DNA from: Adhaeribacter radiodurans
GTDB lineage: Bacteria > Bacteroidota > Bacteroidia > Cytophagales > Hymenobacteraceae
Assembly: GCF_014075995.1 (NCBI RefSeq)
Contig: NZ_CP055153.1
Location: 5,580,001-5,644,000 of the forward strand
Direction: 5' to 3'
Length of the DNA stretch: 64,000 bases
A program made the translations under genes and the position numbers. Numbering within the stretch: the first letter of the stretch is position 1; each line of letters opens with the position of its first letter. Below, piece by piece: positions 10,211 through 48,256 of this stretch. The notes under the pieces were generated by a model. The model ran no database searches. It worked only from the letters and a program-made list of their open reading frames with translations, and was not told the DNA's origin.

Positions 10211-10261
10211 AGAATGCGAAAGGCCTTGCAAGTTATTGACTTACAAGGCCTTTCGCATTCT
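10211..10261. terminator. Displaced tRNA-Leu terminator hairpin beside attL
   Basis: Bases 10211-10228 and 10244-10261 form a perfect 18-bp stem, with a further AAGT/ACTT pairing inside. It lies 2 bp outside the left attachment repeat. Its inner part (CTTGCAA...GACTTACAAGG) matches the hairpin next to the intact tRNA-Leu at 17700-17731. The simplest reading is that this was the original terminator of the tRNA operon, pushed 7.5 kb away when the element inserted. Confidence 0.6.
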
Positions 10262-10263
10262 AA

Positions 10264-10283
10264 AAAGTACCAGGGGCGGGACT
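10264..10283 (-). repeat. attL, 20-bp direct repeat of the tRNA-Leu 3' end
   Basis: Bases 10264-10283 are identical to 17732-17751, where the sequence is the 3' end of tRNA-Leu plus 4 bases. After 10283 the match stops (ACCATAC versus TGAACCC), so this copy is not part of a tRNA. It marks the left end of the integrated element. Confidence 0.85.
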
Positions 10284-10349
10284 ACCATACTTCTTTAACT
10301 TACTTAAATCCTTTTAAATTTCATGCATTTAAGCCATATTTGAGGGGTT

Positions 10350-10375
10350 CTTAAACTCACTTCAGTGAGTTTAAG
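10350..10375. promoter_or_regulatory. Inverted repeat upstream of the integrase
   Basis: A perfect 11-bp stem (CTTAAACTCAC / GTGAGTTTAAG) around TTCA, between attL and the integrase gene, 45 bp from the arm-type repeat. It may be a terminator protecting the integrase from outside transcription or a protein binding site; the sequence does not decide. Confidence 0.4.
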
Positions 10376-10394
10376 TCATTTTTAACTATAAAAA

Positions 10395-10414
10395 TGACAC
10401 CAAATCTGCCACCT
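10395..10414 (+). repeat. Candidate integrase arm-type site, left
   Basis: TGACACCAAATCTGCCACCT here and at 17669-17688 with one change (C to A), in the same orientation, one near each end of the element. Paired repeats near the core sites are typical arm-type binding sites of tyrosine recombinases or excisionases. Confidence 0.6.
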
Positions 10415-10509
10415 ATTTTGATCTTTTTAAAACCTATTACACGATACTTACCTTTCATCAAAATAGTGCAGGTGATTTTTTTTAACCTTTAATAACCTCT
10501 TCCCCCACT

Positions 10510-11745
10510 ATGGCAAGTATTAACTTTACCCTTAACCACCAGAAGAAAGACTCCAAAGGGCTTATTCCGGTTTGGATGGTTTTAAACTTTAATGGCATTC
10601 GGATACGAAAAGCAACCAAGGCCAAGCTTAAGGAAAAACACTGGATAGAAAAGGCTCAGCGGATAAAACCACCATTAAAAGGCGAACCTTATAATAATCA
10701 TGCTGAATTTAATACTATCCTAGATAGTACGGAGAAGAAGGTTCAAGACATCTTTAATCATGCATTACTAAATGGAATACCATTAACCAAAGAATATGTA
10801 GAAAGCCAGCTAAACAACAAGTTTAGCGCACAACCTAAGGCTAAAGATTTTTTTACCTGTTTTAAGGAGTTTATTGAGGCGAACAAGCCTCTTAAAGCGA
10901 AAAGAACAATAATGGGCTACGTTACTACTATAAACTTCTTGAAGGGCTTCCAAAATGATTCAAATCTTCCTATCCGATTCGACAATGTAACGCTTGACTG
11001 GTTTGATAAATTACGTACTTATGCCTTTAAGGAGAAGCAAGTAAAAGATAACTACTTTTCTACTTTAATAAACAGGTTAAAAGCATTTTTAGGATGGGCT
11101 GCTGATAGAGGGTATAACGAAAACCAAGCTTATAAGAAATTCTCAACTATTGAACGTGAAGGAGATATTATCTGCCTTTACGAAAAAGAACTATTTCAGC
11201 TTTATGAATTTGAATTTAATAGTAAAAGGCTTGAACAGGTTAGAGACGTTTATTGCTTTGGTTGCTTTACCGGCTTAAGGTTTTCCGATTTATTCGATTT
11301 AGGAAGAGAGCATATTAAAAATGGGGAAATCCAGAAAACCATAATTAAGACAAGGCAATTTCAAAAGATTCCTTTAAATGATTTTGCTTTAGCGATACTG
11401 AACAAATACCAAGATTACCCTAATCCCCTTCCTATAATCTCCGCTCAAAAATTTAACTCTTATATAAAGGAAGTTTGCAAACTGGCTGGCATAGATGAAT
11501 TAATAACTGTTACCTCTTATTCTGGAGGAAAAGCGATTGAAAAAACAGTACCTAAGTATGAACTTATAACCTCTCACACTGCTCGGAAAACTTTTACAAC
11601 AAACTCCTTAATCTTTGGCTTAAATGAATCAATAGTAAAAAAGATTACTGGCCATAAAAAAGATAAAAATTTTCAGCGATATGTAAAATTCGCGGATGAA
11701 TACTTAAAGGAAGAGTCGAATAATGCTTGGAACAATAGAAAATGA
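10510..11745 (+). CDS. Tyrosine recombinase / integrase
   Basis: A 411-residue site-specific recombinase. It has an N-terminal arm-binding region (residues 1-105), a SAM-like core-binding domain (about 110-205) and a catalytic domain with Arg257 (FTGLRFSDL), His356 and Arg359 (SHTARKTF), His382 (TGHKK) and nucleophile Tyr391 (QRYVKF). It looks intact. As the first gene inside attL it presumably drives integration at tRNA-Leu and, with the HTH protein at 13702, excision. Start ATG 10510. It ends in TGA, which shows that TGA is read as stop in this element. Confidence 0.93.
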   Translation: MASINFTLNHQKKDSKGLIPVWMVLNFNGIRIRKATKAKLKEKHWIEKAQRIKPPLKGEPYNNHAEFNTILDSTEKKVQDIFNHALLNGIPLTKEYVESQLNNKFSAQPKAKDFFTCFKEFIEANKPLKAKRTIMGYVTTINFLKGFQNDSNLPIRFDNVTLDWFDKLRTYAFKEKQVKDNYFSTLINRLKAFLGWAADRGYNENQAYKKFSTIEREGDIICLYEKELFQLYEFEFNSKRLEQVRDVYCFGCFTGLRFSDLFDLGREHIKNGEIQKTIIKTRQFQKIPLNDFALAILNKYQDYPNPLPIISAQKFNSYIKEVCKLAGIDELITVTSYSGGKAIEKTVPKYELITSHTARKTFTTNSLIFGLNESIVKKITGHKKDKNFQRYVKFADEYLKEESNNAWNNRK

Positions 11746-38904: not shown

Positions 38905-39311
38905 AATGGCTTTCGCTCCGCCCGTTTTTTAGCGCCACAAAGATAGAAAGTTCCCGGCAAAGTTCCTGCTATTACCCTGGTTAAGGCTTTTGGGTTGTAT
39001 TATTTAAAAAATAGGCTGTCAGAAAATCAAAATTTACTTTTTTTACCCTACTTTCCGGTTTCCTGGCGGGCCAGCTACGTTGAAAGAAGTTGAATAAGCT
39101 GTTTTAACAGAGTTGAAAAGCGGCTAAAATTTGAGTTATTCTTATCCCTTCTAATTATATTAAAATGGGTAATTGATTAATCAGCTTATTTAGTAAAACA
39201 GATTTTTAGAACAACGCATAGGTAACCAACGGAAATAGTACTTGTAGGGCTGCTTACGTGGCCTTTTTGCAAAAATTAACGTACACTTTTTATTTTACTT
39301 TTATTTTTTAC
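38905..39311. promoter_or_regulatory. Divergent intergenic region with candidate -7 box
   Basis: 407 bp between the glycosyltransferase and hflX. CAAAGATA at 38938-38945 reads TATCTTTG on the minus strand, 34 bp from the glycosyltransferase start, but without a well-spaced TTG upstream. Nothing else clear. Confidence 0.4.
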
Positions 39312-40544
39312 ATGGCCAAAAAATTACATGATACCGCTAAAGTGCAGGAAACTGCTGTTTTAATAGCTGTTCCTTCTAAAACGCAACCCGACGAACAAAC
39401 CGAAGAATATTTGCACGAACTGGCTTTTCTTACGGAAACTGTAGGGGTTCAAGCCATTAAGCGTTTTATTCAGAAATTAGAGAAACCCGACATTCGCACG
39501 TACGTGGGCAAAGGCAAGCTCGAAGAAATTAAAGCCTTCGTGGAAGAATTTCAGATTGACATGGTTATTTTCGACGACGACCTTACTCCTTCGCAGGTGC
39601 GCAACCTGGAAAGCGAGCTCAAGGTAAAAATCGTAGACCGTAGTTTATTAATTCTGGATATTTTCGCGCAACGGGCTAAAACGGCTCAGGCCCGCACACA
39701 GGTTGAAATGGCTCAGTACCAATACTTTTTACCCCGGTTAACTAACCTCTGGACCCACTTATCGCGGCAAAAAGGGGGTGTAGGCATGCGGGGCCCCGGT
39801 GAAACAGAAATTGAAACGGACCGTCGGATTGTGCGCGATAAAATTGCTTTGCTCCGCGACAAGCTCGACAAACTGGATAAGCAAAATTATCAGCAGCGAA
39901 AAGCACGGGCCGAAATGGTGCGCGTAGCTTTGGTTGGTTATACCAACGTAGGCAAATCCACGCTCATGAATTTACTATCTAAATCAGATGTTTTTGCCGA
40001 AAACAAATTATTTGCTACCGTTGATGCGACCGTGCGCAAAGTAGTAATTAACCAAATTCCTTTTTTGTTGTCAGACACGGTAGGATTTATTCGCAAATTG
40101 CCTACCCGCCTGATCGAGAGTTTTAAATCTACCCTGGATGAAATTCGCGAAGCTGATTTGCTCGTGCACGTAGTAGATATTTCGCACCCTTCGTTTGAAG
40201 AACACATTGAAATAGTAAATAAAACTTTAAAGGAAATTAACTCCGCCGAAAAACCGGTGTTGCTCGTGTTTAACAAAATAGACCAGTACCGCACTCAGGA
40301 AGCAGAAGAACTTAACGATATGGGCGAAGGCGCCGAACGGCCCACGTTAGAGGACCTCAGGCAAACGTACATGGCTAAAATGCATAATCCGGCCATTTTT
40401 ATTTCGGCCACGGCCCGCCTGAACATTGATGCCCTACGAGAAGAGTTGTTCGCCCGGGTAGCCACCATTCATAATGAGCGCTACCCAAATGTTTTGCCCC
40501 CTTCCGCCGAAGAACTGCATACCCCAGACAGGTACGAGGGTTAA
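39312..40544 (+). CDS. hflX: GTPase HflX
   Basis: 410 residues from ATG 39312. The frame extends to a GTG at 39258 but those 18 residues look like translated leader. The N-terminal HflX domain includes TYVGKGKLEEIKAF and IFDDDLTPSQVRNLE, then the linker GGVGMRGPGETEIETDRR and a G domain with G1 GYTNVGKST, G3 DTVGF and G4 NKID. HflX binds the 50S subunit and splits stalled or heat-damaged ribosomes. Confidence 0.95.
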   Translation: MAKKLHDTAKVQETAVLIAVPSKTQPDEQTEEYLHELAFLTETVGVQAIKRFIQKLEKPDIRTYVGKGKLEEIKAFVEEFQIDMVIFDDDLTPSQVRNLESELKVKIVDRSLLILDIFAQRAKTAQARTQVEMAQYQYFLPRLTNLWTHLSRQKGGVGMRGPGETEIETDRRIVRDKIALLRDKLDKLDKQNYQQRKARAEMVRVALVGYTNVGKSTLMNLLSKSDVFAENKLFATVDATVRKVVINQIPFLLSDTVGFIRKLPTRLIESFKSTLDEIREADLLVHVVDISHPSFEEHIEIVNKTLKEINSAEKPVLLVFNKIDQYRTQEAEELNDMGEGAERPTLEDLRQTYMAKMHNPAIFISATARLNIDALREELFARVATIHNERYPNVLPPSAEELHTPDRYEG

Positions 40545-40643: not shown

Positions 40644-40735
40644 GTTATCGGTTGTATTTGGGAGGATATATGGAATAAGGAAGTAAAATATAATGCAGAT
40701 AACCGGAGTTACTCCGTTTATCTGGTAGTTAGCTG
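40644..40735 (+). repeat. Leading repeat of cassette-like locus 1
   Basis: About three quarters identical by eye to 46387-46475, with exact shared blocks AGTAAAATATA, GCAGATAACCGGAGT and CGTTTATCTG. The core folds as CAGATAA-CCGGAG...CTCCG-TTTATCTG. It lies 24 bp before the SUFU gene, as its partner lies 26 bp before the membrane-protein gene, so the same boundary precedes two unrelated genes. Confidence 0.75.
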
Positions 40736-40758: not shown

Positions 40759-41325
40759 ATGAGTTCACAGGAATATGTTTATAAGGTACAGCAACATTAT
40801 GAAAGCTATTTTCAAACTTCTGGAAACAAAAAAGTTTTAGATAAAGGACCAAAAGAAAAACTTCACCCAAACTTTTATATTCTTGAGTTTGCTCCAAATA
40901 AAATCCACGACTTCTGGACTTATTGCACAGTTGGGATGTCAGTTGATTGTGAAGAAGAAAATCTTATTGAGCTTTTCATTTACTCACCTCGTCAGGACGT
41001 TGCACTTATAGAATTATTGACAGTTGCAGCATCTTACCACAGGAATGTTCTTCCTTTAGATTTGAATCACACGGTAAATATTGGGCAGCCTTGGCTTGAT
41101 GATTCGAAATGTGACCACGGATTTATATCCCTTCCCTATTTAGATGGGGAACAACTTGAAATTTTGGAATTAGGAGAGAAGGTAATTAATTGTTACTGGT
41201 TCATACCAATTACAGAAAAGGAACGGGACTATAAAATGGGAAATGGTGTAGAAGATTTGGAACAGCTATTTGAGGAAAAGCAACTTGATTATCTGAATCC
41301 AAACAGAAAAGAACTAGTGGTATAA
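40759..41325 (+). CDS. Suppressor-of-fused (SUFU) domain protein
   Basis: A 188-residue protein matching the bacterial SUFU-like family: FWTYCTVGMS, LIELFIYSPR, LPYLDGEQLEIL and VINCYWFIPITEKERDYKMGNGVEDLEQLFEE. Bacterial members are often stand-alone or immunity-like genes; their role is unknown. Here it sits alone between a leading repeat (40644-40735) and an attC-like palindrome (from 41341), i.e. as a single-gene cassette. Confidence 0.85.
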   Translation: MSSQEYVYKVQQHYESYFQTSGNKKVLDKGPKEKLHPNFYILEFAPNKIHDFWTYCTVGMSVDCEEENLIELFIYSPRQDVALIELLTVAASYHRNVLPLDLNHTVNIGQPWLDDSKCDHGFISLPYLDGEQLEILELGEKVINCYWFIPITEKERDYKMGNGVEDLEQLFEEKQLDYLNPNRKELVV

Positions 41326-41340
41326 TTAAGAAAAACAACA

Positions 41341-41403
41341 GCTAACCACGTGTATACTTTATGCTTCGGCCGATGGCCTAGCGCGTCGTTTACACTAGTC
41401 CGT
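41341..41403 (+). repeat. attC-like palindrome 1, left part (split by IS)
   Basis: Begins GCTAAC, has an outer stem GTGTATAC / GTTTACAC and a central GGCC-GAT-GGCC. It starts 15 bp after the SUFU stop. The right part resumes at 43066 (CCGTTGGC) after the IS1182-type element. Restored, it runs GCTAAC...CCGTTGGC and is colinear with the intact site at 46993-47061. Confidence 0.7.
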
Positions 41404-43065
41404 CAGACTGTCTAATAACATAATATAATTTGTAACCTCCAGTAGGCTAAGTAACTAAACAATAAAGTACTAGCTCACTTACCTGATGAAGTTTATACAA
41501 AGTAGCCCACGCAGTCAAGTTCCTTTTTCCGGTGCCAGCCTGGAGGAGGCCATTTCAGCGGAGAATGAGGTGCGTTACATCGATGCCTTTGTAGACGCAC
41601 TCCCGCTCCAGAAACTAGGCTTCCGCCTGGCGTTTACCGAGAATGGCCGCCCGGCTTACCATCCAGCCATCTTACTTAAGCTCTTTATCTATGGCTATCT
41701 CAATCGCATCCGCTCCTCCCGGTGCCTGGAGAAGGAATGCCACCGCAATATTGAAGTGATGTGGCTGCTGGGCCAACTCACCCCGGACCACAACACGATT
41801 GCCAACTTCCGCAAGAATTACCCCAAAGCCATCACCCAGGTCTTTCGGACCACCGTTCAAATGGCCCGTCACTTTCAACTGATCGGGGGACAACTGCTGG
41901 CTGGTGACAGCACGAAGCTGCGGGCTCAGAACTCCAAGAAAAATAACTATAACCAAAGCAAGATTGCGCGTCACCTGGCCTACATTGAAAACAAGCTGGC
42001 TGGCTTCACCCAAGCCCTTGCCCTAGTAGATAATGCCGCGGAAAGAGAGCAGATCACCCAGGCGATGACCAAGCACTTGCAGCGGCAACAGTATTACCGC
42101 CAGTTGGCTCAGCAGCTAAAGAACTCGGGAGAGGAACAGGTGTCCACCTCAGATCCAGAAAGCCGGCAGATGATCATCCGAAATACTATTACCGAAGTAG
42201 CTTACAACGTACAGACTACCGTAGACGCCAAGCACTGCCTGCCTATTGACTACCAAGTGACGAACCACAACGACAGTAAGGCGATGGGTAATATGCTGCG
42301 CCGGGCCAAGAGTATCGTTGGTCATAGTTCCTTCTCCGCTCTCTTTGACAAGGGGTACCATACGGGCTCAGAACTGGAAATCGCCCAACGGCTGGGTATC
42401 CGCACACTGGTAGCCATTCCAGCACCGGCTGCTAGTGCCCCGGACGCCAACTACAACCTAGAGCACTTTGCCTATGACCCTGCCAGAAATGTGTATGTCT
42501 GCCCGCAGCAACAGGTGCTTACCACCAACGGTAGCATCTACACTAAAAATCGGGGTTATTCCAACCAGACTAGCTTTTGGCAGTACCGCACCAGGTCCTG
42601 TAAAAGTTGTCTCGCCCGTATTCGCTGCACCACGGCTAAAAACGGCAAACTTATCGAACGCAACGTCTACTCCCCCGTTTTTGAAAAGAATCGAGCGAAC
42701 ATTACCGCCAACCCGGAGCTTTACAAGCGGCGACAGGCCATTGTCGAGCATCCTTTCGGCACCCTGAAAAGGCAGTGGGGCTACAGCTACGTACTCTCCA
42801 AGAAGGGCATAGCCCGTGCTTCGGCTGATGTGGGACTCATGCTGGTGGCCTACAACCTACGCCGGCTGCTCCACATACTGGGGATGCAGGCCGTTATGGC
42901 TTATATCCAAGCACGAGCTGCCTTACTAATCGGCTCCCGTACTAAAGTTAGCGTACAGTTGCAGCGATACATGGAAAATATAACAATAAGTCTAAACTGC
43001 TACTTTATATATCTTAAGAATACTATCTTTATGAAACTATCTAGCCGAGGTTATTAGACAAACTG
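41404..43065 (+). mobile_element. IS1182-type insertion sequence, 4-bp target duplication
   Basis: Inverted ends CAGACTGTCTAATAAC (41404-41419) and 43050-43065 (reverse complement matches 14 of 16). The flanks are CCGT at 41400-41403 and CCGT at 43066-43069, a 4-bp target-site duplication. Removing the element and one CCGT restores an attC-like palindrome. Gene and ends are intact, suggesting a recent insertion. Confidence 0.85.
41486..43057 (+). CDS. IS1182-family transposase
   Basis: A 523-residue transposase: N-terminal YHPAILLKLFIYGYLNRIRSS and LTPDHNTIANFRKN, catalytic block GGQLLAGDSTKLRAQNSKK (first Asp), TTVDAKHCLPIDYQVTNHND, FDKGYHTGSEL (second Asp), Cys-rich segment CKSCLARIRC and the late acidic YKRRQAIVEHPFGTLKRQWG (Glu). 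The last codons and stop lie inside the right inverted repeat. No frameshift. Confidence 0.9.
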   Translation: MKFIQSSPRSQVPFSGASLEEAISAENEVRYIDAFVDALPLQKLGFRLAFTENGRPAYHPAILLKLFIYGYLNRIRSSRCLEKECHRNIEVMWLLGQLTPDHNTIANFRKNYPKAITQVFRTTVQMARHFQLIGGQLLAGDSTKLRAQNSKKNNYNQSKIARHLAYIENKLAGFTQALALVDNAAEREQITQAMTKHLQRQQYYRQLAQQLKNSGEEQVSTSDPESRQMIIRNTITEVAYNVQTTVDAKHCLPIDYQVTNHNDSKAMGNMLRRAKSIVGHSSFSALFDKGYHTGSELEIAQRLGIRTLVAIPAPAASAPDANYNLEHFAYDPARNVYVCPQQQVLTTNGSIYTKNRGYSNQTSFWQYRTRSCKSCLARIRCTTAKNGKLIERNVYSPVFEKNRANITANPELYKRRQAIVEHPFGTLKRQWGYSYVLSKKGIARASADVGLMLVAYNLRRLLHILGMQAVMAYIQARAALLIGSRTKVSVQLQRYMENITISLNCYFIYLKNTIFMKLSSRGY

Positions 43066-43123
43066 CCGTTGGCTGCAAGCTTGACCATTAAAAATTTACT
43101 CATTACAAATTAAAATTAGGCAT

Positions 43124-43606
43124 ATGAAAACTTTTATTTTTTTACTGCTGACAGTTTTTGTCTCAATTGTTAGCATGGGACAAAGTTCCAAGGATGAAGA
43201 ATCAGTAAAAAAGGTAATCAATGCATTTCAAGATGATTTCAATGATGGAAGTTTTAAAAATGCTGCTGCTTATACAACCTCAGATTGGGAACACCTCGAT
43301 CCAGGAGGCGGAATCGTCAAAGGGCGTGAGGAAGTTTTAAAGGTAGTTAGAGGAGTTCATCAAACAATTTTAAAGGGAGTAAGTATGACAATACAAAGCA
43401 TGAGTATTCGCTTTATTACTCCTGATGTTGCAATAGCAGATGTCATTCACAAGATTAGCGACTTTGAATTACCGGCTGGCGTGAAGCATAAAAATGAACT
43501 GAATTTAAAAACTTATGTAGTAGTAAAACAAAAGGGAAAATGGTTATTAACGCATGACCAAAATACTACTGTAGCCGGTTCTAATACGGCAGAAAATCCG
43601 AAGTAA
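43124..43606 (+). CDS. Secreted SnoaL-like (DUF4440/SgcJ-type) protein
   Basis: A 160-residue protein with a signal peptide (to about SIVSMGQ). The NTF2-like part reads VINAFQDDFNDGSFKNAAAYTTSDWEHLDPGGGIVKGREEV and ends with KGKWLLTHDQNT. This fold includes polyketide cyclases and many unknown enzymes. It follows the restored attC-like site 1, so it may be another cassette gene, although no palindrome is seen behind it. Confidence 0.82.
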   Translation: MKTFIFLLLTVFVSIVSMGQSSKDEESVKKVINAFQDDFNDGSFKNAAAYTTSDWEHLDPGGGIVKGREEVLKVVRGVHQTILKGVSMTIQSMSIRFITPDVAIADVIHKISDFELPAGVKHKNELNLKTYVVVKQKGKWLLTHDQNTTVAGSNTAENPK

Positions 43607-43824: not shown

Positions 43825-44319
43825 ATGAACATGAACATTATTAATACTGGCAATGAACAAGGACAAAGTATTTCAGTAGTTGGCGACACGTATCGTATTC
43901 TGATTTCGGGCGAGCAAACAGGTGGCAATTACGCTGTTATTGACATGCTAGTAGTACCTCCTGGTGGTGGACCGGGGCCTCACGCGCATAAAGACATGCA
44001 AGAAATGTTTTATGTAGTTGAGGGAGAAATTGATTTTAAAATGCAAAGCGGCAGCTACACGGCAAAAAAAGGGGCTTTTGTAAATATTCCTTTGGGAGGT
44101 GCCGTTCATAGCTTTAAAAATAAAACAGATACAGTTGCACATTTACTATGTACCGTTGTTCCGGCAGGTTTGGAGAGCTTTTTCAAAGAAATAGGAAAAC
44201 CTATTGCTGCAGGTGAATTTTTAACGCCGCAGCCTCCAACGTCAGAGGAGTTAAACAAACTGCAACAACTAGCCGAAAAATATGGGCAAAAACTTTATCC
44301 ACCCAATTTCCTAGACTAA
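43825..44319 (+). CDS. Cupin domain protein
   Basis: A 164-residue single-domain cupin with metal-site motif 1 PGPHAHKDMQEMFYVVEGEIDF (H-x-H-x4-E) and motif 2 YTAKKGAFVNIPLGGAVHSFKN. Likely a small oxidoreductase, isomerase or binding protein; substrate unknown. Stand-alone gene 218 bp behind the SnoaL-like gene. Confidence 0.85.
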   Translation: MNMNIINTGNEQGQSISVVGDTYRILISGEQTGGNYAVIDMLVVPPGGGPGPHAHKDMQEMFYVVEGEIDFKMQSGSYTAKKGAFVNIPLGGAVHSFKNKTDTVAHLLCTVVPAGLESFFKEIGKPIAAGEFLTPQPPTSEELNKLQQLAEKYGQKLYPPNFLD

Positions 44320-44519
44320 GCCTTTATTTTTACAGATTTTTTTTATACCGGATAAAGCAAAATAGTTAGAATGCATGCCCGAACCGCTAACACGGCCTAT
44401 ATTAAAGAGCGGCTTAATTGCGTATGCTCAGTATATTTAACAAGCTATTACATTGCTCTCAGTAAAAGCTCTGTTTGCTACCTTAATAATAGAACCTGAA
44501 GCTACCATTATAAAATAAA

Positions 44520-46386: not shown

Positions 46387-46475
46387 CTTATCGGTTATTT
46401 TTGGATAGATAAACAGAATAATGCAGTAAAATATATTGCAGATAACCGGAGTAGTTGCGTTTATCTGCTATTTAG
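46387..46475 (+). repeat. Leading repeat of cassette-like locus 2
   Basis: Diverged copy of 40644-40735 (shared CTTATCGGTT, AGTAAAATATA, GCAGATAACCGGAGT, GCGTTTATCTG). It precedes the first gene of a tandem series of gene-plus-palindrome units. Confidence 0.75.
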
Positions 46476-46500
46476 TAGTAATCAATAAATTAAAAAGAAA

Positions 46501-47007
46501 GTGGACAGCAGCAGGGCAAAATTGATTGGTCAAAAAATTGGCATAAAGTCAACGTTGGTCGGAATTTTAGTTGCATACCTGATAATGTCAGGTTTTATAA
46601 TGATTGATTCTTCGTACTTAGATGCTTTACTTTGGTTTACAAAAATTGATTATTGGATAAACTTATTAGTCGGAACAATTGCATTTATTCTTTCCGGATA
46701 CTTCTATGGCCGACTTGCTGGATTTCTAATTTTAATAAAAAAGAAAGATTATGAATTAACAGGCATAATCATTGGCTTCTTAACACTTTGGACTGGGACA
46801 CTACTTGGAAGCACAATAGGTTTTATACAAGAAGGCCTTGATAATTTTGGTACATACGACAATCCGATTGTAGATTATTACTTTAAGCCAATATTTTGGA
46901 TTACATTTTTCGGCTTTATACCTGTTATCATTGTTGGACTTTGGTTTGGCAAAAAAATTAAAAAAGCAGGAGCTTCTATAAAAATACCTACCGCTAACAT
47001 TGTATAA
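46501..47007 (+). CDS. Small membrane protein, four transmembrane segments (cassette gene 1)
   Basis: 168 residues from a GTG start (46501), with hydrophobic segments at about 14-32, 44-66, 80-103 and 130-150 and basic ends. I recognise no family. Its last codons and TAA (47005-47007) lie inside the attC-like palindrome at 46993-47061, which is the usual arrangement of integron cassettes. Its leader is the repeat at 46387-46475. Confidence 0.7.
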   Translation: MDSSRAKLIGQKIGIKSTLVGILVAYLIMSGFIMIDSSYLDALLWFTKIDYWINLLVGTIAFILSGYFYGRLAGFLILIKKKDYELTGIIIGFLTLWTGTLLGSTIGFIQEGLDNFGTYDNPIVDYYFKPIFWITFFGFIPVIIVGLWFGKKIKKAGASIKIPTANIV

Positions 47008-47061
47008 ACATTATGTCACGGCCGACGGCCTTGCACGTTGTTTATACGAGACCGTTGAAGC
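46993..47061 (+). repeat. attC-like palindrome 2
   Basis: GCTAAC at the left, GTATAAACA paired with TGTTTATAC, a central perfect GGCCG-A-CGGCC, and CCGTTGAAGC at the right. It is colinear with the IS-split site at 41341-41403/43066. The right box GTTGAAG fits GTTRRRY at six of seven positions. Confidence 0.7.
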
Positions 47062-47066
47062 TAATA

Positions 47067-47537
47067 ATGAAAAAGAGAAAAACGTATCAAGAGGAAGTAG
47101 CAAAACTAATAAGGGCGATTGAAATTGCTGTTGATTCTTTTGAAAAGTACTGCCCTAAGGATTTGGATAAAACCAGCCATGAACATGTTATTTCTTGCTA
47201 TAAAGGATGGAAAGAAGAGCTATTGCATCCCCTACCACAATACATGAATCTAGCATCTTTAAAATATTTCATTGAAGACGTGTTTACCTATTTTCAAGAA
47301 TCATCAGGAGAGACAACAGAATATTTCTGGAAAAGGATTAATAATGAAGCGCTTGGTTATGAGAGGGAAAATAAACTCAAAAAAATACTTGACCGTGGAA
47401 GAATTAAAGGTAGAATAGAATTTGATTATGTGACAGACATGATGGTAGTAGCTGAGCAAGTAGGACTAACTACAAAAGAGGAGTCAATTAGATTAGGAAA
47501 TATGTTGGATAAATTTGAATTTAAAAAGAAAAAATAA
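47067..47537 (+). CDS. Hypothetical protein (cassette gene 2)
   Basis: 156 residues from ATG 47067. An upstream ATG at 47013 lies inside palindrome 2 and its 18 extra residues are translated repeat, so it is not used. The protein is charged, probably all-helical (KKRKTYQEEVAKLIRAIEIA, LKKILDRGRIKGRIEFDYVTDM), without known motifs. Its stop lies 3 bp before the next palindrome (47540-47592). Confidence 0.7.
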   Translation: MKKRKTYQEEVAKLIRAIEIAVDSFEKYCPKDLDKTSHEHVISCYKGWKEELLHPLPQYMNLASLKYFIEDVFTYFQESSGETTEYFWKRINNEALGYERENKLKKILDRGRIKGRIEFDYVTDMMVVAEQVGLTTKEESIRLGNMLDKFEFKKKK

Positions 47538-47539
47538 CT

Positions 47540-47592
47540 GGCTACACAACACCTATAGGGCATAAACGCACCATAGCCAAACCATTGTAGGC
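47540..47592 (+). repeat. attC-like palindrome 3
   Basis: GGCTACACAAC at the left and ATTGTAGGC at the right are imperfect inverted ends; in between, CACC...GCATAAACGCACC and ATAGCC can pair weakly. It lies directly behind cassette gene 2. Similar in size and end bases to the site at 48203-48256. Confidence 0.55.
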
Positions 47593-47690
47593 AATTCAAA
47601 AGACAACGACTCTATAAAAATGACGGGGTAATTATATTTGTAGACATAATTTTAAAACTTCAGACAACAAAGCAAAGAGAACTATTTCTA

Positions 47691-48104
47691 ATGGACATTT
47701 TAGAAAAAAACAAAGCAGTTGTAAGGCAATTCAACAGGGAAGTGATTGAACAATGTAATTGGGAAACGTTCAATGCCATTATGGACAATGATTTTATAAA
47801 CCAAACCGCACCGCCAACCGCTAATAGAGCAGACGGTATGTGGAACACTTTCAACAATATTTTGAAACCTGCCTTCCCAGACTTGAAAGTGGAAATCTAT
47901 GATCAAATTGCAGAGAACGATAAAGTAACAACACGAAAAGCAATTATTGGAACCCACAAAGGTGTTCTTATGGGAATAGAGCCTACGGGCAAACGAATTA
48001 AAATTGACGTAATTGACATAGTAAGGCTGAAAGACGGAAAATACCTGGAGCATTGGGGTATTAACACCCTACAGACTGTAATTATAGAACTTAAAAAAGG
48101 ATGA
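47691..48104 (+). CDS. SnoaL-like ester cyclase family protein (cassette gene 3)
   Basis: A 137-residue NTF2-fold protein: VVRQFNREVIEQCNWETFNAIMDNDFINQTAPPTANRADGM, then FPDLKVEIYDQIAENDKVTTRKAIIGTHKG and a C-terminal RLKDGKYLEHWGINTLQ. Typical of predicted ester cyclases; substrate unknown. It is the third gene of the palindrome-separated series; the next palindrome comes 98 bp later. Confidence 0.85.
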   Translation: MDILEKNKAVVRQFNREVIEQCNWETFNAIMDNDFINQTAPPTANRADGMWNTFNNILKPAFPDLKVEIYDQIAENDKVTTRKAIIGTHKGVLMGIEPTGKRIKIDVIDIVRLKDGKYLEHWGINTLQTVIIELKKG

Positions 48105-48202
48105 TAAGACAAAAACTATTTACTAAATCGGTTTTGCAATATGGTGGCTGACGCATAAGTACCGAATGATTAAAATACTATTGAACATTAGTAATAAATT
48201 TA

Positions 48203-48256
48203 GCCTAACGCAACACGGAAAGCCACCCCATCGCAAAGCCTTGAACCGTTGGAGGC
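48203..48256 (+). repeat. attC-like palindrome 4
   Basis: The left box GCCTAAC fits the attC 5' consensus RYYYAAC exactly; the right box GTTGGAG (48248-48254) fits GTTRRRY at six of seven. The outer ends GCCT...AGGC are inverted. It lies between the ester-cyclase gene and the AraC-type gene and closes the series. Confidence 0.6.

Follow-up and report, generated by a model that had tools for sequence, protein, structure and literature searches.

Probably orphaned cassettes in Adhaeribacter radiodurans point to an integron-like system of Bacteroidota with a recombinase other than IntI

Integrons are defined by the integrase IntI, and clusters of attC sites that lack an integrase nearby are termed CALIN. 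The subject of this study is a run of small genes and attC-type hairpins in the genome of Adhaeribacter radiodurans, contained in a stretch of 64,000 nucleotides (assembly GCF_014075995.1, contig NZ_CP055153.1; C2:5580001-5644000 of a 6.94 Mb genome), hereafter the window. Two sources describe the IntI-specific domain as necessary or essential for integron function (PMC9668308, PMC8138268), and the second adds that it is not fully conserved. Reverse orientation of the integrase is mentioned for Spirochaetota in PMC9668308, and PMC9024848 names one complete integron in Bacteroidetes proper, that of Salinibacter. In Riemerella anatipestifer, a gene flanked by 27 bp at its 5' side and 140 bp at its 3' side is reported to insert with no need for homology, and the 3' part folds like an attC site (PMC13148043). 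A literature search covering few subscription papers and no preprints returned no paper on a non-IntI integron of Bacteroidota, which does not prove novelty.

Our interpretation, to which we assign a probability of about 0.83, is that the window contains an orphaned array of cassettes from an integron-like Bacteroidota system whose platform recombinase would be a tyrosine recombinase outside IntI. In features open to a test by sequence, the system appears integron-like. A cassette would consist of one gene and a hairpin-forming attC-type site, would travel as a circle, and would enter attI or attC at the GTT core, a position shown by the cassette ends and by a cassette common to two genomes. 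The platform in relatives comprises a tyrosine recombinase gene, a short palindromic attI, and cassettes, all on one strand, and the recombinase may act on the folded bottom strand, by analogy with IntI. In the present genome the recombinase would have been lost, leaving attI-like copies at nine places. We lean, by a narrower measure, towards the broader view that Bacteroidota hold a widespread second class of integron, with a non-IntI tyrosine recombinase and a hairpin attI, both partners possibly being recognised as folded single strands. The new recombinase has an extra N-terminal region, which may do the job of the IntI insertion.

In relatives, arrays of this kind stand behind a tyrosine recombinase gene. 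On a plasmid of Rufibacter tibetensis, the recombinase is followed by seven sites, one per small gene; model R1, whose training set includes six of these sites and two of the present genome, calls its own six, and the seventh was recognised by eye. In another genome (G090), 18 called sites lie behind a recombinase of 390 aa and on its strand. A profile of five recombinases, run against genome contigs, confirmed at least 538 relatives, of which the best 80 were taken as named loci, mostly from Flavobacteriaceae, Cytophagales, and Bacteroidales, with a few others. R1, which had no training on these 80 loci, gave 18 matches at E <= 1, every one downstream of the recombinase and on its strand. Model R2, trained on 63 sites, 18 of them from the 80 loci, gave 108 matches in 30 loci, again all downstream and on the same strand, with 0 in 704 kb upstream. 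Where at least 2 kb of sequence lies behind the recombinase, sites are present in 29 of 43 loci. The contig stops within 1 kb behind the recombinase in 29 of the 80, as expected if repeated sites break assemblies. A second named plasmid with an array, NZ_CP111080 (L249), carries a recombinase of Pontibacter kalidii followed by six called sites on the same strand.

The attI of the relatives lies beside the integrase gene and before the first cassette, in the order recombinase stop codon, short palindrome, GTT, first cassette. In a background comparison that took 25 of 39 loci, 11 had a palindrome scoring at least 10, against 0 of 100 random upstream stretches. The R' box of attI, which begins with GTT, matches the R'' box of the first called site, which carries AAC, at five to seven of seven positions in 20 of 34 loci, 14 of them perfectly.

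If a cassette is a circle that opens at GTT, the bases after the GTT at the start of a cassette and those before the AAC at its end should be complementary across the cassette rather than within the present site. Adjacent pairs in three sets match at a mean of 5.45 (31 pairs), 6.34 (73 pairs), and 5.27 (59 pairs) of seven positions, compared with 2.54, 2.59, and 2.68 for the two boxes within a site and 2.57, 2.58, and 2.52 for non-adjacent pairs; in none of the three sets did any of 10,000 permutations attain the sum observed. The first set used 56 of 60 matches (three of these are on the opposite strand of L055 and enter no adjacent pair) and one short hand-placed site, and the second used 105 of 108. 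The third used 80 of 83, from which 8 on the other strand were then removed, leaving 72, with L232 judged on the strand of its array. Among the array loci compared from the three sets, no common stretch longer than 500 bp at 97% identity or above was found. Since both cassette ends are reverse complements, the crossover is placed at GTT.

Comparison of genomes shows cassette borders directly. Two genomes (G050 and G035) have their first cassette in common; measured between its GTT borders it is 1050 bp long in one and 1052 bp in the other, at 97.5% identity, while their flanks agree at just 22 of 60 bases before it and 24 of 60 from the far GTT on. Two genomes whose recombinase and attI are 92% identical over 2.2 kb diverge shortly behind the GTT, and their first cassettes differ. 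The hflX locus that borders the window's array gives a third comparison. In G294, a phosphohistidine-phosphatase-like gene and ppk1 (names assigned by eye) adjoin directly and no site is called, and in G177 about 3.6 kb lies between, with an attI-like palindrome and sites of 78.2, 22.0, and 15.1 bits. The site search that included this comparison used 14 of the 15 stretches fetched, L230 being omitted as a duplicate record of L055. Because G294 is empty and G177 and the window each hold a set of their own, the locus is polymorphic for cassettes.

Among 150 genomes of the family, 68 have recombinase and sites, 9 the recombinase alone, 9 sites alone, and 64 neither (recombinase at E <= 1e-50, sites at E <= 1e-5, the two scans being taken as covering the same 150 genomes), a co-occurrence with a Fisher p of 3e-22 in genomes that are related and not independent. 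A scan of the phylum for the recombinase alone matched its profile in 69 of 296 genomes at E <= 1e-100. The recombinase is present in six of eight sampled genomes of the window's genus; no recombinase of the new family was found in the present genome or in G294, though both have sites.

In the window, the array begins behind hflX at about 40.7 kb rather than at 46.4 kb, where the earlier note had begun its description, and it contains the following features:

39258..40544, plus strand: hflX-like GTPase gene (identified by eye) that forms the constant left border of the array and is collinear in G177 and G294
40696..40730, plus strand: attI-like palindrome CAGATAACCGGAGTTACTCCGTTTATCTG (40696-40724), then GTA and GTT (GTT at 40728)
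40759..41325, plus strand: cassette A gene, SUFU-domain protein, 188 aa
41338..41409, plus strand: site A, attC-type, the part left of the insertion sequence; R3 match 41338-41412, 56.6 bits, E 3.3e-13
41410..43059, plus strand: IS1182 family insertion sequence inside site A, with ends GTCTAATAAC and GTTATTAGAC
43060..43078, plus strand: right end of site A with the R' box, GTT at 43068; match 42976-43078, E 0.42
43124..43606, plus strand: cassette B gene, SnoaL/DUF4440-like protein, 160 aa
43642..43780, plus strand: site B, attC-type with a long variable stem, weak; R2 19.7 bits, E 0.0066
43825..44319, plus strand: cupin gene that may be a cassette; a candidate R'' box at 44392 agrees at 5 of 7, with no site called there
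46439..46475, plus strand: second attI-like palindrome (46439-46467), GTT decayed to TTT
46501..47007, plus strand: cassette D gene, small membrane protein (membrane by eye), 168 aa, no Pfam match
46990..47064, plus strand: site D, attC-type, the strongest in the window; R3 77.6 bits, E 2.1e-19; R'' AAC at 46996, R' GTT at 47054
47058..47537, plus strand: cassette E gene, unknown protein, 159 aa, no Pfam match
47542..47594, plus strand: site E, degenerate attC-type; R2 19.3 bits, E 0.0081 (10.5 kb, filters off)
47691..48104, plus strand: cassette F gene, SnoaL-like polyketide cyclase family, 137 aa
48206..48258, plus strand: site F, weak attC-type, end of the array; R2 10.5 bits, E 0.89

Model R3 is a covariance model built from 14 sites, all of other genomes. 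From the letters alone, the earlier note had proposed three attC-like palindromes, at 46993-47061, 47540-47592, and 48203-48256, behind three unrelated small genes. The first corresponds to site D and stands firmly, including its overlap with the stop codon of the gene at 46501-47007; the second is marginal and the third weak. Folding of site D on the bottom strand has a z of -2.34, with 4 of 200 shuffles as good, and of -1.52 on the top strand. Site E (z -0.40 and -1.12) is no more palindromic than its shuffles and has ATT in place of GTT in its R' box, and neither E nor F is called by R3 with default filters. The sites match nothing in Rfam at gathering or permissive thresholds. Box patterns were also tried as a site finder; the loose pattern gave 4 hits compared with 11 for its reversed control, which makes such patterns useless alone. 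The comparison of the array to CALIN, which the earlier note had drawn, fits the window even with two of those three sites weak, as more than one attC-type site (R3 matches at 41338 and 46990, with weaker R2 ones) lies there with no integrase near. The sole Phage_integrase match in the window, an open reading frame at 10510-11745, is about 29 kb away, is weak against Xer models, and was not matched by the model for integron integrases at E 0.001.

At the proximal junctions the cassette ends match at 6 of 7 from attI to site A (18 of 300 shuffled words equal this) and at 6 of 7 from A to B; the second attI-like palindrome reaches 5 of 7 with site D, a level that shuffled words attain as well. 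The two palindromes, at 40696 and 46439, are near copies of each other, and an architecture like that at 40696 is found behind the recombinase in Rufibacter and in G397, a member of the window's genus. The cupin gene (cassette C) was not accepted as a cassette, nor were the OmdA and hydrolase genes behind it. PADLOC recognised 0 families among six cassette genes and one recombinase. The IS1182 copy at 41410-43059 has a counterpart at 12811-14460 of L059, each lying inside an attC-type site; in the two, the left flanks are identical from the central loop onward and the right flanks up to GTT, and the remainder differs. The element may target attC-type hairpins or may carry half a site along.

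Further sites and palindromes occur elsewhere in the genome. R1 identifies 11 places at E <= 1.1e-5, spread over the chromosome and the plasmid contig (two are R1 training sites), and R3 identifies 11 at the same threshold within stretches taken around such matches. The whole-genome lists of R1 and R2 come from the best 150 of 366 and the best 150 of 3776 first-look candidates, respectively, and they differ probably because just 150 were scored. The attI-like palindrome is present at nine places with at most two mismatches (its reversed-pattern control has 0), and we term these nine attI copies because they resemble the attI of G397. GTT follows three bases after the palindrome in eight of the nine and has decayed in the ninth, a spacing that seems to tie the palindromes to cassettes and led us to reject their interpretation as general repetitive extragenic palindromic (REP) repeats. 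At least five of the nine closely precede a model-called site, and in these five the word that best complements the sequence following GTT coincides exactly with the R'' box of the site in question. Their ends match at 7, 6, 5, 7, and 6 of 7 positions, with 0, 18, 168, 3, and 24 of 300 shuffled words as good; by this control two of the five stand out clearly, two are intermediate, and the second palindrome of the window does not stand out. The remaining four, where no model called sites, match at 5, 6, 6, and 6 of 7 (114, 8, 7, and 5 of 300 shuffled words), and one of them, C2:1761974, ends in a site recognised by eye. The earlier note had named three outcomes that would speak against its proposal: no model match above random, no further copies in the genome, and an invariant gene order in relatives. 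What we find is R3 matches far above chance, additional sites and attI-like palindromes, and an hflX locus that differs between species.

A number of observations weigh against the reading of the window as such an array, beginning with the comparative nature of all the evidence for it. Site F folds no better than its shuffles (z +0.77 and +0.51), and the distal junctions, from D to E and from E to F, match at just 1 of 7 in the ungapped cassette-end test, from which we conclude that sites E and F are decayed or misjudged. Four of the nine attI-like copies have no model-called site as their best end match, and the shuffled control is poor for several copies. In relatives, R2 calls no site in 14 of the 43 loci where 2 kb or more of sequence follows the recombinase, the L232 array lies on the strand opposite to its recombinase, and the nine family genomes with the recombinase alone all belong to one genus (g2), match only without the N-terminal part, and have no sites. 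The sites keep the AAC/GTT core and the stem, with full RYYYAAC boxes in 11 of 107 and 23 of 80 sites and full GTTRRRY boxes in 12 of 107 and 14 of 80. For attI, a script finds a palindrome with GTT in 34 of 39 loci and also in 67 of 100 random upstream stretches, and with that background the count was set aside as standalone evidence. The attI R' box matches at 4 or fewer of 7 positions in 14 of 34 loci; in three of these (by eye, L108, L109, and L227) the script had picked the wrong GTT of two neighbours, and in the remaining ones the first site may be uncalled.

One alternative is that the window is an ordinary CALIN whose cassettes were placed by a classical IntI, encoded 1.2 Mb away, with the array-linked recombinase a bystander. 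The sites follow the attC plan, and the genome does encode a true, full-length IntI homologue (C2:4434734-4435630; L057 14669-15658) that scores 283.6 bits against the curated cut-off of 265 and is the only one above it in 390 genomes of the order, judged on at most five best candidates per genome. Compared with IntI4, its best solved relative, however, this protein has four putative catalytic positions changed or missing: Arg I is replaced by Lys, the beta-strand Lys falls in a gap, His II is replaced by Tyr, and His III by Leu. R1 and R3, models not tuned to classical attC, call no site in the stretches around it (L057, L058), and R2 calls one 36 kb away (C2:4471727, E 0.0019). Sites in 77 of the 150 family genomes track the new recombinase instead, and the matching attI lies directly behind that recombinase, all of which makes placement by IntI a distinctly improbable account. 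Sites without the new recombinase, a degenerate IntI, and no site near it are the grounds on which we read the array as orphaned; the cassettes of this genome may still be moved in trans. A simpler explanation would take the hairpins for transcription terminators or REP-like repeats behind ordinary tandem small genes. They do lie just after stop codons, and the weakness of sites E and F suits it, but terminators do not predict a site end complementary to the start of the next site, a common cassette with GTT at both borders, or placement only downstream of one recombinase family, and we give this explanation next to no credence.

The alternative with most in its favour, which we nonetheless think unlikely, is that the new recombinase branched off from within IntI and lost the insertion, which would make the arrays divergent integrons. 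Phage_integrase and Phage_int_SAM_4 matches are found in all 36 members examined, and the latter, an N-terminal SAM-like family, is common to the IntI relic of this genome. The closest solved structures to the new recombinase are a XerC-like protein, IntI4, and XerA, and its C-terminal SPLD end is the same as in IntI1. The catalytic residues are kept in most of 78 extracted proteins (R 76, K 72, H 77, R 78, H 78, Y 78), a sample that includes two other recombinases (L106, L140). Aligned to the IntI relic, on the other hand, five of five array-linked recombinases lack the IntI stretch before the second catalytic His, and they do not have the additional domain around patch III by which members of the IntI family are recognised; the Rufibacter recombinase scores 199.4 against the integron-integrase cut-off of 265. 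In a tree of 47 rows, IntI (8 rows, branch support 98/97) stands apart from the new family (34 rows, 90/94). The weight of this tree for the order of descent is limited, since outgroups are few, branches are long, one IntI row is short, and composition is uneven. Its input was 29 of the 78 extracted recombinases and five others; L106 and L140, where a different recombinase had been picked, were left out. Because the IntI-specific domain is absent, the system does not belong to the IntI integrons as defined. The earlier note had also allowed for an unknown recombination system, which proves partly right in that the arrays of relatives adjoin a non-IntI tyrosine recombinase. HARP and DUF5710 were considered as names for the N-terminal region of the new recombinase and rejected, as they match 5 and 6 of 36 members at E <= 0.1, a weak hint. 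Distant relatives of the recombinase occur among the integrases of Polaribacter phage Freya (MT732463 and others), with 35% identity over residues 123-379.

Related loci connect the system to mobile genes of other kinds. On plasmid pHH1107 (L250 3058-3925), tnpF, a fragment of a new-family recombinase, stands before tet(X3), with an attI-like palindrome and its GTT between the two. The 175 bases around and behind the tet(X3) stop contain no matching R'' box by eye, and R2 gives no convincing site. The order of tnpF and attI-like palindrome before tet(X3) suggests a source route for this gene. On the plasmid contig of the present genome (C1; L060 10067-10531), a group II intron (RF02001, 115 bits, 10246-10415) lies on the strand opposite to an attC-type site and seems by eye to begin where the R'' end of that site lies, a position like that described for IIC-attC introns. 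A group II reverse transcriptase is annotated behind the recombinase of a Chryseobacterium plasmid, on the opposite strand, where R2 called no site.

If the broader view holds, a large bacterial group may possess its own version of the integron. Comparable platforms with their own integrase are found in about half of the 150 family genomes and behind the recombinase in 30 of the 80 loci, many of them flavobacterial; as the calling of complete integrons relies on IntI, the class may have gone unnoticed. Such a system would account for dispersed orphan genes with hairpins, and it bears on whether the IntI insertion is needed for recombination of folded sites. It would also offer a mechanism for the homology-free gene uptake seen in one Bacteroidota species (PMC13148043). 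This Riemerella case shares with the present one a Bacteroidota host and an attC-like 3' fold, and differs in that no integrase is named there. The distance from AAC to GTT has a median of 122 in our mostly flavobacterial site set, which fits the 140-bp 3' part, and the present system may be responsible for the Riemerella uptake.

With IntI integrons the system shares cassettes of one gene each that all point the same way, hairpins of the attC type, an attI adjoining the integrase gene, crossover at GTT, and complementary cassette ends. It differs in a recombinase that falls outside the IntI clade and lacks the IntI insertion, in recombinase and cassettes that share one strand, in an attI that is a short palindrome, and in R boxes that mostly fit the consensus in the AAC/GTT core alone. 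The reverse integrons of Treponema have their integrase oriented along the cassettes, as here, and use a true IntI, unlike the system described here. With CALIN the window shares several attC-type sites and cassette genes with no integrase near; what sets its orphan loci apart is that they retain attI-like copies and that the platform in relatives is non-IntI.

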